NCBI RefSeq assembly: GCF_024623785.1
Contig: NZ_JANKBZ010000002.1
Span: forward strand, 558,001-622,000
DNA from: Archangium lipolyticum
GTDB taxonomy: Bacteria; Myxococcota; Myxococcia; Myxococcales; Myxococcaceae
Reading direction: 5' to 3'
Length of the DNA: 64,000 nucleotides
Below, in pieces: positions 1 to 4,169 of the stretch. Under the pieces are notes generated by a model. It was not told the DNA's origin and did no database searches. It was given only the letters and a program-made list of their open reading frames with translations. A program made the position numbers and the translations under genes. Position 1 is the stretch's first letter, and every line of letters starts with the position of its first letter.

Positions 1-2
1 TC

Positions 3-1307
3 CTGGCCAGCGGTGACCTGAACGGTGATGGCAGGGATGAGCTGGTGGCGGGGGATTCCAGGGCCGCCTATGTCGTGGGCAGCGCGACCACCACGAACGT
101 GGGGGCGGTCCACATCTACTCCGACGCCCTCTCCGGGAACGAGACGCCCCTGACGCTGTGGCCCTCCACGCCCACGGTGGGGGCGCAGCTCTTCGGGAAC
201 GAGGTGGCGGTGGGCAACGTGGGCGACGCCTCCGGCGAGGGACGGCCGGATCTGCTGGTGGGCTCGCCGAACTGGTCCACTGCTCGAGGCCGGGCCTTCC
301 TCTACTTCGGCCGTACGGGCCAGCCGGTGGACCCGGCTCCCATCGAGTTCCGGGGCCAGGCCAGCTCGACGAATTTCGGCCACGCCGCCCGCATCATCGC
401 GGACCTCAATGGAGATGGGTTGTCCGAGGTGCTCCTCAGCGCCGACGGGGAGAATGGTGGGAAGGGCAGGGTCTATCTCTTCTTCGGGCGCACCCGCGCC
501 AACTGGGTGGCGGCCTCGACCGGAAACGAGAGCGGCGTGACCTTCGTGCCCGTGGACAAGGCGGACCGCATCATCGAAGGGGATACGAGCCTCAACGTGG
601 GCACGAACACCTACTTCGGCCGGCGGCGGGGACAGGCGAACGTGGGAGACCTCGATGGCGATGGCAAGCCGGAGCTTTCGATCTCCTCGCCCTACGACAA
701 GGTCAACACCCTCTACATCTATCCCGGGAGCATCCTGATGGCCCGCAACGGCGCGACCGTGGCGGAGCGGACGCTGACGGTCGCGGACACGTTGCAGCGC
801 CTCACCTACGGTCCGGTCAGCACGGGAGGTCTCAATGGCTTCGGCGTGGACGTGGTGGCACGGGTGAACTTCACCGGTGGACCCGCCAGGGACCTGGTCG
901 TCAGCCAACCCGAGTCGAACACCCTTCGCCTCTTCCCGGACGGTGGGGCGTCGGGGTTCGTCCAGCCCGAGTGGTCCGTCACCGTGGCGAACGACCCCAG
1001 CATCACCGTCAAGCGCTTCTTCGGCTACACGCTGGCCTCGGCGGACATCAACCAGGATGGGTTGCCGGACCTCGTGACCGGCGAGTCCATGACCACCAGC
1101 GCCTCCGCCTGGATCCTCTACAACCGGGGGGGCACCGGAGCGCCGTTCGATCTCGTGGCCGGTGAAGGTGTCGCCCAGTCCCGTTTCAAGGGAGTCAAGG
1201 CGCTCGGGGCCGGTGTCGTGACGGGTGACTTCAACGGGGATGGTGCGCCGGACGTGGCGGCGGGCGATCCCTTTGATACCCCGGGGCGCATTACTGTGTG
1301 GTATTGA
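3..1307 (+). CDS. FG-GAP/integrin-alpha-like beta-propeller protein, 5' end outside the window
   Basis: The reading frame is already open at the first bases, so the start and any signal peptide lie upstream. The visible 434 residues carry repeated calcium-binding FG-GAP cores: DLNGDGRDELVAGD at the window edge, then DASGEGRPDLLVGSP, DLNGDGLSEVLLS, DLDGDGKPELSISSP, DINQDGLPDLVTGES and DFNGDGAPDVAAGDP. This DxNxDGxxD spacing is typical of seven-bladed integrin-alpha propellers on secreted or surface-anchored bacterial proteins. It ends in Trp-Tyr after the last blade, so no C-terminal anchor or sorting domain follows. A 46-codon peptide gene starts 12 bases after the stop and probably shares the transcript. 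The cellular role (adhesion or ligand binding) is inference; the fold call is secure. Confidence 0.9.
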   Translation: MASGDLNGDGRDELVAGDSRAAYVVGSATTTNVGAVHIYSDALSGNETPLTLWPSTPTVGAQLFGNEVAVGNVGDASGEGRPDLLVGSPNWSTARGRAFLYFGRTGQPVDPAPIEFRGQASSTNFGHAARIIADLNGDGLSEVLLSADGENGGKGRVYLFFGRTRANWVAASTGNESGVTFVPVDKADRIIEGDTSLNVGTNTYFGRRRGQANVGDLDGDGKPELSISSPYDKVNTLYIYPGSILMARNGATVAERTLTVADTLQRLTYGPVSTGGLNGFGVDVVARVNFTGGPARDLVVSQPESNTLRLFPDGGASGFVQPEWSVTVANDPSITVKRFFGYTLASADINQDGLPDLVTGESMTTSASAWILYNRGGTGAPFDLVAGEGVAQSRFKGVKALGAGVVTGDFNGDGAPDVAAGDPFDTPGRITVWY

Positions 1308-1319
1308 TAGAACTCGACC

Positions 1320-1460
1320 ATGCGGACGGAACCGAAGCAGCCACTTCCCAAGAAGCCCTACAGTCCTCCCCGGGTGAAGTCCGAGCGCATCATCGTGCCG
1401 GACCTGTTCCAGCCGACGAACTGCGACCCCTTCGGTGACCCGCGCCCTGAGTGCCTGTAG
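1320..1460 (+). CDS. 46-residue RiPP-like precursor peptide (candidate)
   Basis: A short ORF of 46 codons begins with ATG 12 bases after the FG-GAP stop and ends 9 bases before the kinase-like gene. A TAG lies just upstream in the same frame, so the ATG at 1320 is the only ATG start. No Shine-Dalgarno is obvious, so translation may be coupled. The N-terminal part is basic and proline-rich (PKKPYSPPRV) and fits the YxxPxL/V leader motif that RiPP recognition elements bind in lasso-peptide precursors. The tail has two cysteines nine residues apart (NCDPFGDPRPECL). A usual lasso core (Gly/Cys start with Asp/Glu at ring position 7-9) is not evident, and no B1/B2/C maturation genes are next to it. 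Precursor status is inference from position and leader motif; it may instead be a small substrate or regulator of the adjacent kinase. Confidence 0.5.
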   Translation: MRTEPKQPLPKKPYSPPRVKSERIIVPDLFQPTNCDPFGDPRPECL

Positions 1461-1469
1461 GTCCGGAGC

Positions 1470-2246
1470 ATGGCGCGGGTGTGCTTCGGCCGGTGGGTGT
1501 GCGAGGTCGAGGACGCGCTCCTCGACGCGGCCCGCCCCCGGTGCAGTGACGCGCCCTTCCTCGTGGAGGAGGGGCGGCCACGGTTGAGGCTCCGCCGGCT
1601 GGCGGACCTGGGCGAGGGGGCCCGGCCCTTTCAAACCGGCCAGCCCTCGCTCGGCGCCGTCCGGGTGGAGGAGGACGGGCTGGCGACGGATGCTCCCCTG
1701 GAGCTCCTCCCGGCGGAACTCGCGCTGCGTGCGCTCTTCCAACTCGCCATCCTGCGCCAGGGAGGTCTCTGCCTGCATGCCGCTGGCGTGGCCTTCGGTG
1801 AGGAGGCGGTGGTGGCCCTGGGCATCAGTGGGGCCGGCAAATCCACCCTCTCGCGGCTTTGCGTCCAGTCAGGCAGGGCCGCGCTGCTCTCGGACGAGGT
1901 GGTGGCGCTGTTGCCGGACGGCCTCGTGTGCGGCAGCCCCTTCCGCTCGGAGCCGGACCTGCCCGCCACACGCACCGAGGCTCGCCTGCACGCCTTCCTG
2001 TTGCTGGAGAAGGGGCAGGTCGAGTCGATCTCCCCGGTGCGCCCCGCGGCCCTGGTGGCTCCGCTGCTCGGACAGGTGTTTCAGGGGGAGGGGGGCACGG
2101 GGCTGAGCCTCGGCGCTGCGACGCTTCCGAGGCTGGGTGGCCTGATGGCGCCCGTTCCGGGATTCCGCCTGACGTTCCGCAAGGACCCGGCCGTGGCGGG
2201 TTTCCTCGACGAGTGGATGCATGGGCTCACGCCGTCCCGAGGATGA
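1470..2246 (+). CDS. HPr-kinase-like P-loop protein (HprK-related)
   Basis: 258 residues; ATG preceded by GGAG at a good distance. A Walker A loop GISGAGKST sits at residues 118-126, preceded by LHAAGVAF (His103) and followed by LLSDEVVAL (141-147), the arrangement of the HprK/PEP-carboxykinase-like kinase core. The true HprK N-terminal domain is missing. Proteins of this short type occur in peptide-modification cassettes; the paeninodin lasso-peptide kinase, which phosphorylates a C-terminal serine, is the best studied relative. Here the preceding gene encodes a 46-residue peptide and the following gene overlaps this one by 26 bases, implying translational coupling. The peptide has only two serines (15 and 21) and one mid-chain threonine besides Thr3, so a C-terminal serine kinase reaction cannot be assumed. 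Fold is well supported, substrate unknown. Confidence 0.75.
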   Translation: MARVCFGRWVCEVEDALLDAARPRCSDAPFLVEEGRPRLRLRRLADLGEGARPFQTGQPSLGAVRVEEDGLATDAPLELLPAELALRALFQLAILRQGGLCLHAAGVAFGEEAVVALGISGAGKSTLSRLCVQSGRAALLSDEVVALLPDGLVCGSPFRSEPDLPATRTEARLHAFLLLEKGQVESISPVRPAALVAPLLGQVFQGEGGTGLSLGAATLPRLGGLMAPVPGFRLTFRKDPAVAGFLDEWMHGLTPSRG

Positions 2247-3189
2247 GTGGGCGGCGTTCCTCGAGGCGAGCCCTCCAGGTACGCGCCTCTGGGTTCGAGG
2301 CGCCGGACGGAGCATGTACCCGCTGCTGCGCGGGGGTGATTCCGTCCAGGTGGAGCGCTGCTCGGACGTCTTCGCGGTGCGGCCCGGGGACATCGCCCTC
2401 GTCCGTGTGGAAGGGAGAGGGCTCGCGGCTCATGTGGTGTGCTCCGTGGCGCCTCTGCGTACGCGGTCCTTCCTCGGGCGCGCGGACGAGGGCCCCGTGC
2501 AGCTGCTGGGACGGGTGGTGGCCGTCCGGCGCTCGGGGCTTCGCCTGCCGGTGGGAGGCCGGCTCGTGCCATTGCTGCTGGCCATGCACCGGGTGGGTGC
2601 TCGCGCGGCGGGCAGCGCCTCGCTTCGCCGAAGCGTCCAGGTGCTGCGGGGCATCGCCTCTTCTCCGGCCACCCGCGAGCCGCGGCGGCGGTGGCTCGGT
2701 CCCATCGAAGTGCGGCTTCTCGCCCTGGAGGACGCGGAGGCACTGCTGCTCTACGCGGGGCATGCCCTGCGTGGCCCCACGGCTTTCCTGGGCGACTCGC
2801 TGCGGGAGCGGTGGTGTCAGGAGGACGGAGCGGTGGGCGCCTTCACCCGCCGGGGCCGGATGGTGGGCTTCGCGGTCCGGGAAGAGGCGTGGCTGCGCTA
2901 CCTCCACGTGACGGAGGAAGCGCGGCGGCTTGGGGTGGGGACGCGGCTGCTCCGGGAACTGGAGGGGTCCGCCGCCCGACGAGGCATCCGGGTGCTGCGC
3001 GCGGCGGTGCGGGAAGAGGAGGTGGCCTGCCGGGAGTTCCTGGCCAGCGGTGGCTTCCTCGATGTGCCTGGAGGGCAAGGAGCGGAGCGCCAGGGTCCAC
3101 CTTGGAGACAGTCCGGAGGGCCCTGGCGTGAGCTCGTGCACCCCCTGGGGGATGAAGCCCTCCCCCCATTGCATCGGCCCGGAGGGTAG
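2221..3189 (+). CDS. S24/S26 signal-peptidase-fold domain fused to GNAT acetyltransferase
   Basis: 322 residues starting inside the kinase-like gene (26-base overlap). Residues 20-125 match the S24/S26 peptidase-like fold: GRSMYPLLRGGD with the nucleophile-like Ser31, then RPGDIALV and a LLGRVVAVRRSG strand. Residues 160-290 match a GNAT acetyltransferase, with the acetyl-CoA loop RRLGVGTRLL at 235-244 and a C-terminal ASGGF. Remarkably, the whole protein contains no lysine, so the Ser-Lys dyad of active S26 enzymes cannot form. The first domain is therefore either a non-catalytic binding module or uses another base. Neighbours suggest it acts with the kinase on the upstream peptide, for instance binding or acetylating it. 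The fusion call rests on motifs; the function is inferred. Confidence 0.7.
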   Translation: MGSRRPEDEWAAFLEASPPGTRLWVRGAGRSMYPLLRGGDSVQVERCSDVFAVRPGDIALVRVEGRGLAAHVVCSVAPLRTRSFLGRADEGPVQLLGRVVAVRRSGLRLPVGGRLVPLLLAMHRVGARAAGSASLRRSVQVLRGIASSPATREPRRRWLGPIEVRLLALEDAEALLLYAGHALRGPTAFLGDSLRERWCQEDGAVGAFTRRGRMVGFAVREEAWLRYLHVTEEARRLGVGTRLLRELEGSAARRGIRVLRAAVREEEVACREFLASGGFLDVPGGQGAERQGPPWRQSGGPWRELVHPLGDEALPPLHRPGG

Positions 3190-3239: not shown

Positions 3240-4169
3240 GTGAGCAGCCCCTCTTCCTCTTCGACGAACGATGCCGCCCGCCTCCGCGCGGACGGGGCCC
3301 TGGTGCTCATGACCGCCTTCTGGGGCACCACCTTCGTGGTGGTGAAGGGGGCGCTTGGCCATGGGGACCCGTACTCCTTCCTCACGCTTCGGTTCACGCT
3401 CGGCGCGTTGGCGCTCACGGCCGTCGCCCGGCGCGAGATGCTCGAGCCCCAGACGCTGCGCCGGGGGCTGCTGCTGGGGGTCTTCCTCTTCCTCGGCTTC
3501 GTGCTGCAGACGGTGGGGCTGGTGTCCACCACGCCCTCGCGCTCGGCCTTCATCACCGGGCTGTACGTGGTGTTCGTCCCGCTGCTGGGGCTGATCCTCT
3601 TCCGGCGCATGCCGCGCGTCACTTCATGGGTGGGCGTGGTGCTGGCGGCGGTGGGCCTGCGCTACCTCACCGGCGCGGACGTGGGAGAGGGGGGATTGTC
3701 CGTGGGCGACTGGCTGACGCTGGGCTGCGCGATGGCCTACGCCCTCCACATCCTCCTCACCGAGCGCTACGCGTCGAAGACGGGAGTGGTGGCGCTCGTG
3801 GCCGTGCAGTTGTGGGTGGTGACCGTGCTCTCCGCGCTCTGCCTGCCCTTCACCGAGACCCGGGTGGAGTGGACGCCGTCCTTCATCGGGGCGGTGGCCT
3901 TCTGCGGCCTCCTGGCCAGCGCGCTGGCCCTCTGCGTGCAGACGTGGGCGCAGGTGCGCACCACCGCCGTGCGCGTGGCGCTCATCTGCTCCATGGAGCC
4001 CGTCTTCACGGCGGTGTACTCGGTGTGGCTCGGCTACGAGACGCTCGGCGTGCGCGAGTGGGGCGGCGGAGGTCTCATCGTGGTGGGCGTGCTGGTGGCC
4101 GAGCTGGGAGGCCATCTCCTCGAACGCCTGCGCGGGCGCGGGGCCACCGAGCAGCTCCCCGAGGTGTAG
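3240..4169 (+). CDS. EamA/DMT-family transporter
   Basis: 309 residues with about ten hydrophobic segments in two tandem EamA halves. The first opens with MTAFWGTTFVVVKGAL and the second with MAYALHILLTERYASK, both typical drug/metabolite-exporter starts. Arg and Lys cluster at the ends, as in inner-membrane proteins. Translation starts at GTG; no upstream in-frame ATG exists, and the SD-like sequence is weak. It follows the S26-GNAT fusion by 50 bases on the same strand, so it may be the last gene of the peptide/kinase cassette and export a product, or it may be independent. Substrate cannot be read from sequence. Confidence 0.8.
   Translation: MSSPSSSSTNDAARLRADGALVLMTAFWGTTFVVVKGALGHGDPYSFLTLRFTLGALALTAVARREMLEPQTLRRGLLLGVFLFLGFVLQTVGLVSTTPSRSAFITGLYVVFVPLLGLILFRRMPRVTSWVGVVLAAVGLRYLTGADVGEGGLSVGDWLTLGCAMAYALHILLTERYASKTGVVALVAVQLWVVTVLSALCLPFTETRVEWTPSFIGAVAFCGLLASALALCVQTWAQVRTTAVRVALICSMEPVFTAVYSVWLGYETLGVREWGGGGLIVVGVLVAELGGHLLERLRGRGATEQLPEV

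Follow-up and report, generated by a model that had tools for sequence, protein, structure and literature searches.

The linear polyphosphorylated peptides (LPP) of the lpp cluster of Paenibacillus alginolyticus (Popov et al. 2026; PMC13381572) are the closest described relatives of the system considered here, a predicted five-gene operon of Archangium lipolyticum that reaches into a 64,000-nucleotide stretch of DNA (contig NZ_JANKBZ010000002.1, positions 558,001 to 622,000; hereafter the window). That paper describes LPP as restricted to Bacillota and gives the precursor motif as YxxPxVLxHQxIxFETxxS. Its experiments demonstrate that the kinase LppK phosphorylates Ser3 of the core, which by the motif lies 18 residues after the leader Tyr, and that the protease LppS (S29/H68/D93) cleaves the leader in dependence on a RiPP recognition element (RRE; RiPP, ribosomally synthesized and post-translationally modified peptide).

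The operon in A. lipolyticum combines the same kinds of parts with a giant surface protein. Probably it encodes a RiPP-type phosphopeptide pathway of the LPP kind, in a Myxococcota variant whose product acts with the giant lipoprotein. Among the titles and beginnings of abstracts listed by literature searches, none describes this system in myxobacteria.

A five-gene operon that begins outside the window

The operon order is a PqqD/RRE gene, a giant immunoglobulin-like (Ig)/FG-GAP lipoprotein, a 46-aa precursor peptide, an HprK-like kinase and an S26-GNAT fusion protein (Table 1). We call this arrangement type A, to distinguish it from the paralogous type B cassettes described below. The initial annotation had singled out the last three genes as a 46-residue peptide with a YxxPxV leader, a short HprK-like P-loop kinase and a signal-peptidase fold fused to a GNAT domain. 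It had also noted their spacing, a 9-base gap between peptide and kinase and then a 26-base overlap of the kinase and S26-GNAT genes. All of this is borne out below. Its view that the cassette comes without RiPP maturation genes is mistaken: a PqqD/RRE gene heads the operon just outside the window, and the apparent absence is therefore an artefact of the window edge. Radical SAM enzymes are absent from the five type A operon genes, and a radical-SAM RiPP reading was dropped on this ground.

By profile comparison the RRE is of the lasso-B1/LppB type. Among solved structures, the family profile matches TbiB1 (E 2.1e-7), TfuB1 (2.0e-4), PbaB1 (0.0015) and, weakly, LppB (0.022). At the position four residues ahead of the pocket Phe, 64 of the 66 RREs examined carry Asp and two carry Glu. 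This residue aligns with the equivalent Gln of PbaB1, and the corresponding Asp of LppB binds the leader Tyr (PMC13381572). Covariation of this residue with the leader aromatic residue (Tyr or Trp) was considered and rejected: the Trp/Glu pair of locus L050 fits, but Trp/Asp in L066 and Tyr/Glu in L048 contradict it.

The giant gene runs from an ATG upstream of the window (L033:3953, on contig C2) to window position 1307. Its product is a putative lipoprotein of 1951 aa that starts with a lipobox-like sequence (MRRTGWQWLLAVCALWTAGC), contains Ig-like repeats and carries an FG-GAP beta-propeller at its C-terminus.

Table 1. Predicted operon genes and the adjoining transporter gene (window positions unless a contig is given).
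Feature	Position	Strand	Basis and remarks
PqqD/RRE gene, 99 aa	G000:C2:553111-553410, 4.6-4.9 kb before the window's left edge		Pfam PqqD 5.5e-14
Giant putative lipoprotein, 3' part	1..1307	+	Pfam FG-GAP 7.3e-28, Big_13 1.4e-18; 5' part upstream of the window
Precursor peptide, 46 aa	1320..1460	+	Leader Y14xxP17xV19, predicted core from Q31, candidate phosphoacceptor T33, Cys35, Cys45
HprK-like (PEPCK-fold) P-loop kinase, 258 aa	1470..2246	+	Alignment, AlphaFold2, Foldseek; NCBIfam HprK_rel_A below cut-off
S26-type (SipW/archaeal-like Ser-His-Asp) leader-peptidase domain ~6-110 plus GNAT ~163-286, 322 aa	2221..3189	+	Motif, Pfam, alignment
EamA transporter, syntenic neighbour outside the system	3240..4169	+	Persists beside lone S26-GNAT genes

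The precursor peptide and its kinase

The precursor (MRTEPKQPLPKKPYSPPRVKSERIIVPDLFQPTNCDPFGDPRPECL), in which YxxPxV occupies residues 14-19, is assigned to no family by Pfam or NCBIfam. When 145 genomes of the order were searched with a profile built from 17 precursor peptides, 26 of them gave a match at E <= 0.01. All but one of these 26 matches sit less than 1 kb from an HprK match, and the exception (genome G131) adjoins an RRE and a giant gene. The ratio of nonsynonymous to synonymous substitution rates (dN/dS), pooled over seven precursor pairs that are too short to judge singly, is ~0.35. By these comparisons the precursor is under purifying selection and is more than a chance open reading frame (ORF).

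Within the close group of precursors the leader is conserved as KKxYxxPxVRSEKILVPDLF, ending in DLF, and is followed by a variable tail. At least two Cys residues occur in the tails of all 17 aligned members. A Ser or Thr lies at Tyr+18 to Tyr+20 in 26 of 28 precursors; in the window this residue is T33, 19 residues past the leader Tyr. Both the phosphosite and the cleavage site are predicted by analogy with LppA. A more distant locus in another family of the order (L198:6887-7021, genome G040) repeats the order RRE, giant, peptide, kinase with a precursor whose tail is devoid of Cys.

The kinase carries the Walker A motif GISGAGKST, and H103, G118, G123, K124, T126, D142, E143 and R237 are among the residues invariant in 25 homologues. 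An AlphaFold2 model built with these homologues has a predicted local distance difference test (pLDDT) score of 93.6. Searched against the PDB with Foldseek, it finds PEP carboxykinases (PEPCK) best (1.1e-6) and HPr kinase/phosphatase 1kkl at 2.8e-4, and on this model the protein has the PEPCK/HprK fold. Matches in Pfam and NCBIfam are limited to weak P-loop and HprK-related families, including HprK_rel_A (HPr-rel-A, TIGR04352), where the score of 26.1 bits stays far below the cut-off of 200. When distant forms are included, kinase matches occur in 92 of the 145 genomes of the order (E <= 0.001). The close form (family profile, E < 1e-50) is found in 37 of 195 genomes of the phylum, all of them in one family.

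Conservation of the gene set

Of the 43 assessable loci, 40 have the RRE, giant and YxxP peptide genes side by side, and the exceptions are L085, L087 and L185. Loci were fetched around kinase or RRE matches and counted if they held an RRE with a long ORF downstream. The automated finder gave 39 of 47; four loci cut by contig ends were set aside and L039 was added by hand. A later ATG was taken as the start in L036 and five other loci. As a control, a YxxP ORF follows 29 of 30 giants versus 7 of 299 other genes of at least 250 aa in the same loci. If the ORF must also contain two Cys and begin close to the stop codon, the counts are 28 of 30 versus 2 of 299. The operon recurs across the family, as a set conserved over many genera, and the link to the upstream FG-GAP surface protein that the initial annotation proposed is upheld.

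The gene order in a genome of a different family (L082, G139) is RRE, giant, peptide, kinase, an S26-like gene of 121 aa without a GNAT domain, EamA and an exonuclease. This order suggests that the GNAT fusion was a later addition.

The S26-GNAT protein and its solo relatives

Assignment of the N-terminal domain of the fusion protein to the S26 type is based on a weak Pfam match and a motif. The region resembles S24/S26 enzymes (Pfam S24, E 0.0018, below the family cut-off), and S31, H71 and D89 are invariant in a 22-sequence alignment. The GNAT domain is found by Pfam at 2.4e-7. The model of the fusion (pLDDT 84.7, predicted template modelling score 0.78) retrieves only GNAT structures among the best 50 Foldseek matches listed, and one S26 domain searched on its own has no S26 match in the PDB by sequence.

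In 41 genomes of two genus groups (g19 and g5, probably Myxococcus and Corallococcus), genome-wide searches found neither the kinase nor the peptide nor a close RRE, and yet the S26-GNAT gene persists. The stretches read beside these solo genes gave zero profile matches to the four other cassette genes. They extend upstream over 7.6-8.5 kb at nine loci and ~1.0-2.5 kb at 31, and the L137 contig stops at the gene itself; the absence of the giant at solo loci is read from these stretches alone. The presence of the cassette in deeper branches leads us to infer that it was lost rather than gained in the solo lineages.

An EamA gene adjoins S26-GNAT in 40 of the 41 solo genomes, as exemplified by the gene order of L093 and L096; the 41st locus is cut off at this point by the end of its contig. 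EamA is thus kept where the kinase and peptide are absent, and for this reason we accept it neither as a partner of the cassette, as the initial annotation had proposed, nor as the peptide's exporter.

The Ser/His/Asp triad is intact in all 24 cassette loci and in all 12 S26-only genes of genomes with an RRE, compared with 10 of the 41 solo genes. These counts exclude L111, a distant GNAT fusion among other genes that reads PYG at the triad, and L112, a contig-end fragment that reads SQH. Sixteen columns are invariant in 22 cassette loci. Among 40 solo genes S31 is kept in 14, H71 in 13 and D89 in 27; L96 (26/40) and G29 (35/40) also vary, and the remaining 11 columns are kept in 40 of 40. Replacements at the triad are Cys, Asp or Gly for Ser, and Gln or Arg for His. 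The acetyl-CoA motif of the GNAT domain follows the opposite pattern, being kept in 39 of 40 solo rows and 14 of 22 cassette rows and lost or degenerate in the other 8. Fisher tests, both of which ignore relatedness, give 2e-9 for the triad and 7e-4 for the GNAT motif. An unrooted tree of the neighbouring EamA protein (>200 aa) covers 22 of 24 cassette loci and 40 of 41 solo loci; on it, a minimum of six changes is required for the triad state and three for the cassette label, two of these three on starred branches.

The protease active site thus tends to break where the kinase and peptide are missing. Given this opposition between triad and GNAT motif, it is most likely that peptide processing falls to the S26 part and that the GNAT part does something else. 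Broken triads are found in 31 of the 41 solo genes (L093-L101, L113-L144), and the GNAT motif is intact in 39 of the 40 solo genes on the tree. The broken-triad proteins may be described as putative pseudo-proteases fused to an acetyltransferase.

Type B cassettes

A motif search recovered a second family of peptides (YxxPAxxWxxxF...), in which Ser lies exactly at Tyr+18 in 17 of 18 distinct loci. These type B peptides occur near S26, RRE and HprK-like genes (L073-L080, L088-L092, L145, L149-L152; L145 is the same place as L077), and the gene order was read in L076, L073 and L088. In L076 it is S26, RRE, a lipoprotein, a secreted ~1000-aa PQQ-like propeller protein, the peptide and the kinase, such that the propeller gene directly precedes that of the peptide. 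In L088 the peptide gene precedes the giant gene. A radical SAM/SPASM gene also directly follows the type B kinase at this locus (L088:8886-9962), and further peptide modification may exist there. The searches made did not find a type B cassette in the window's own genome. Two paralogous myxobacterial cassettes, one with an FG-GAP and one with a PQQ-like propeller, each pair a giant propeller protein with one RRE-type peptide and a kinase.

Proposed pathway and alternatives

Our reading draws on the five-gene unit, the conservation of the leader, the type of the RRE, the fold of the kinase, the S26 triad and the retention of this triad in every cassette locus examined. RRE binding, phosphorylation, cleavage, the position of the cut and the role of the giant protein are modeled on these features as follows. 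The PqqD/RRE protein would grip Y14, P17 and V19 of the leader, and the HprK-like kinase would phosphorylate a core Ser or Thr, either T33 or a nearby residue. Guided by the RRE, the S26 domain might then cut off the leader near F30/Q31, next to the phosphorylated residue. This would release a linear core of ~16 aa (QPTNCDPFGDPRPECL) with two Cys, perhaps joined by a disulfide. The GNAT domain would be an add-on with its own job, and the product would act together with the giant secreted Ig/beta-propeller lipoprotein of the same operon.

In type A as in the type B loci inspected, the peptide is regularly paired with a giant secreted propeller protein, which suggests that the two act together or that the peptide acts on the giant. 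A more specific proposal is that, instead of being a free natural product, the phosphopeptide serves as a dedicated partner of the beta-propeller lipoprotein; it could for instance be a phosphorylated ligand or a metal-binding tag that is bound or attached to it. We regard this as possible and put it forward tentatively. If true, it would define a new class of RiPP-equipped surface machine.

Several observations weigh against a phosphopeptide operon of the LPP kind. The candidate residue in the window is Thr, and an S3T mutant was not phosphorylated by LppK (PMC13381572). The offset of the Ser/Thr also varies among precursors, mostly between 18 and 20, with two peptides at 21 or 22. Another Ser/Thr, in the leader at Tyr+7, is equally conserved (26/28, counted by eye) and provides an alternative phosphosite. 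Direct similarity between the RRE and LppB is weak, with the E value of 0.022 given above. An NTP transferase and an MsbA-like transporter, both part of the LPP system, are not among the five operon genes. The gene set is not always compact: in genus groups g3, g12 and g25 (L060, L062, L064, L067) the peptide is separated by 2-3.5 kb from a kinase gene further downstream, in g26 the kinase is on another contig, and an S26-only gene is located elsewhere in the genome. The RRE, giant and peptide genes stay together in these groups despite the displaced kinase and S26. The decay of the triad rests on two or three independent changes of the cassette, and a phylogenetically independent-pairs test of triad loss is not significant, two to three pairs being too few for significance. 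Finally, the ten triad-intact solo genes occur without kinase and peptide; S26 catalysis may serve another use or substrate there, or the cassette may have been lost recently.

The alternative that survives best is that the peptide is a regulator or tag of the giant lipoprotein, with the RRE, kinase and S26 domain controlling export or processing of the giant. The close association of RRE, giant and peptide, which are the most stable neighbours in the 43 assessable loci, fits this idea, as do the secreted propeller gene directly before the type B peptide in L076 and the lack of a dedicated peptide exporter gene in the operon. However, the tail of the peptide is variable, usually bears Cys and looks like that of a product, the type B peptide gene of L088 stands ahead of the giant gene, and a peptide-giant interaction has no direct evidence. 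We judge this alternative unlikely.

It is also conceivable, though doubtful, that the peptide is both phosphorylated and acylated, in that S26 cleavage would expose a new N-terminus for the GNAT domain to acylate. The initial annotation had suggested a minimal peptide phosphorylation/acylation system. A minimal modification cassette with an HprK-type kinase is retained in our reading, and acylation is not. Fusion of S26 and GNAT in one protein beside the peptide speaks for acylation, and the fusion weakly matches the RiPP N-acetyltransferase HaaN (18.6 bits against a cut-off of 250). On the other hand, 8 of 22 cassette loci have lost the acetyl-CoA motif or carry a degenerate form of it, nearly all solo loci, which lack the peptide, retain it, and S26-only proteins occur in other genera that have an RRE and peptide. 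The contrast between cassette and solo GNAT motifs is not independent of phylogeny. On the strength of the motif loss in cassette loci we consider acylation by the GNAT domain unlikely.

A decayed or cyclase-less lasso cluster, in which RRE, kinase and precursor are left over and the cyclase acts in trans or is lost, is very improbable: the RRE and YxxPxV leader are lasso-like, HprK-like kinases are known from lasso clusters, and two strong Asn_synthase matches on the same contig, ~103 and 147 kb downstream, leave room for a cyclase in trans, but no B2 transglutaminase (Transglut_core3) exceeds the family cut-off anywhere in the genome (best 22.3 bits versus 26), the five operon genes include no cyclase, the leader has DLF at its end, where lasso leaders usually carry a penultimate Thr (PMC10368454), and the set is conserved over many genera with its peptide under purifying selection, and hence is not decaying. 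Asn_synthase has five matches elsewhere in the genome, the two strong ones included, and none closer than 100 kb to the operon on the same contig. The initial annotation had noted that lasso B1, B2 and C enzymes are missing; the absence of B2 is supported at the family cut-off, and an RRE of the B1 type is present.

The phosphopeptide operon we favour ties such a peptide to giant surface proteins, a connection that hints at function where the Bacillota work had none. Some of these social bacteria, the myxobacteria, are genetically tractable, and the role of phosphorylated RiPPs becomes testable in them. The solo S26-GNAT genes provide a natural comparison, albeit one with two to three independent changes.

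Comparison with known systems

The HprK_rel_A and HprK_rel_B families and the SCM cassette (ScmC/ScmD), which beyond their model names we presume to resemble the operon in their HprK-like kinases and PqqD-like proteins, give weak matches far below the cut-offs (26.1 bits against 200, 24.5 against 200, 12.8 against 125 and 19 against 100). Paeninodin-type lasso peptides with HprK-like kinases (PMC13381572) share an RRE (B1), a [Y/W]xxPx[V/L] leader and the kinase. The operon differs from them in its S26-type protease, in having neither a cyclase of its own nor a B2 over cut-off in the genome, and in a leader end that is not of the lasso type; the lasso reading was rejected on the B2 result and the leader end.

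Differences from LPP begin with the host, which belongs to Myxococcota instead of Bacillota. The S26 domain is fused to GNAT, a giant Ig/beta-propeller lipoprotein is encoded between the RRE and the precursor, and the precursor has a short core with two Cys and Thr in place of Ser at the candidate site. The precursor has the YxxPxV part of the LPP motif, and 26 of 28 precursors have Ser or Thr at +18 to +20, whereas the middle section, HQxIxFET, differs. NTP_transf_5 exceeds its cut-off in the window's genome only on contig C9, and one match below the cut-off lies at C2:627768. The C9 region holds two neighbouring NTP_transf_5 genes (G000:C9:314501-317504, in L192), with no RRE or kinase profile match within the surrounding 20 kb. 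An MsbA-like transporter is absent from the operon genes, no genome-wide transporter search having been made. In view of the missing NTP transferase and MsbA and of the differing middle motif, we file the system as LPP-like and not as a proven member.

Like the LPP cluster, the operon combines a discrete RRE recognized by Pfam as PqqD, an HprK-like kinase with a P-loop and HprK/PEPCK fold, a SipW-like S26 domain with a Ser-His-Asp triad (S31/H71/D89), and a YxxPxV leader whose Tyr is followed some 18 residues later by a candidate phosphoacceptor, with no cyclase in the operon. Type B peptides fit the LPP motif better, with Ser at +18 in nearly all loci. The logic of a RiPP pathway built from a kinase, an S26 leader peptidase and an RRE, with no cyclase, would thereby be carried from Bacillota into Myxococcota, in two paralogous versions.

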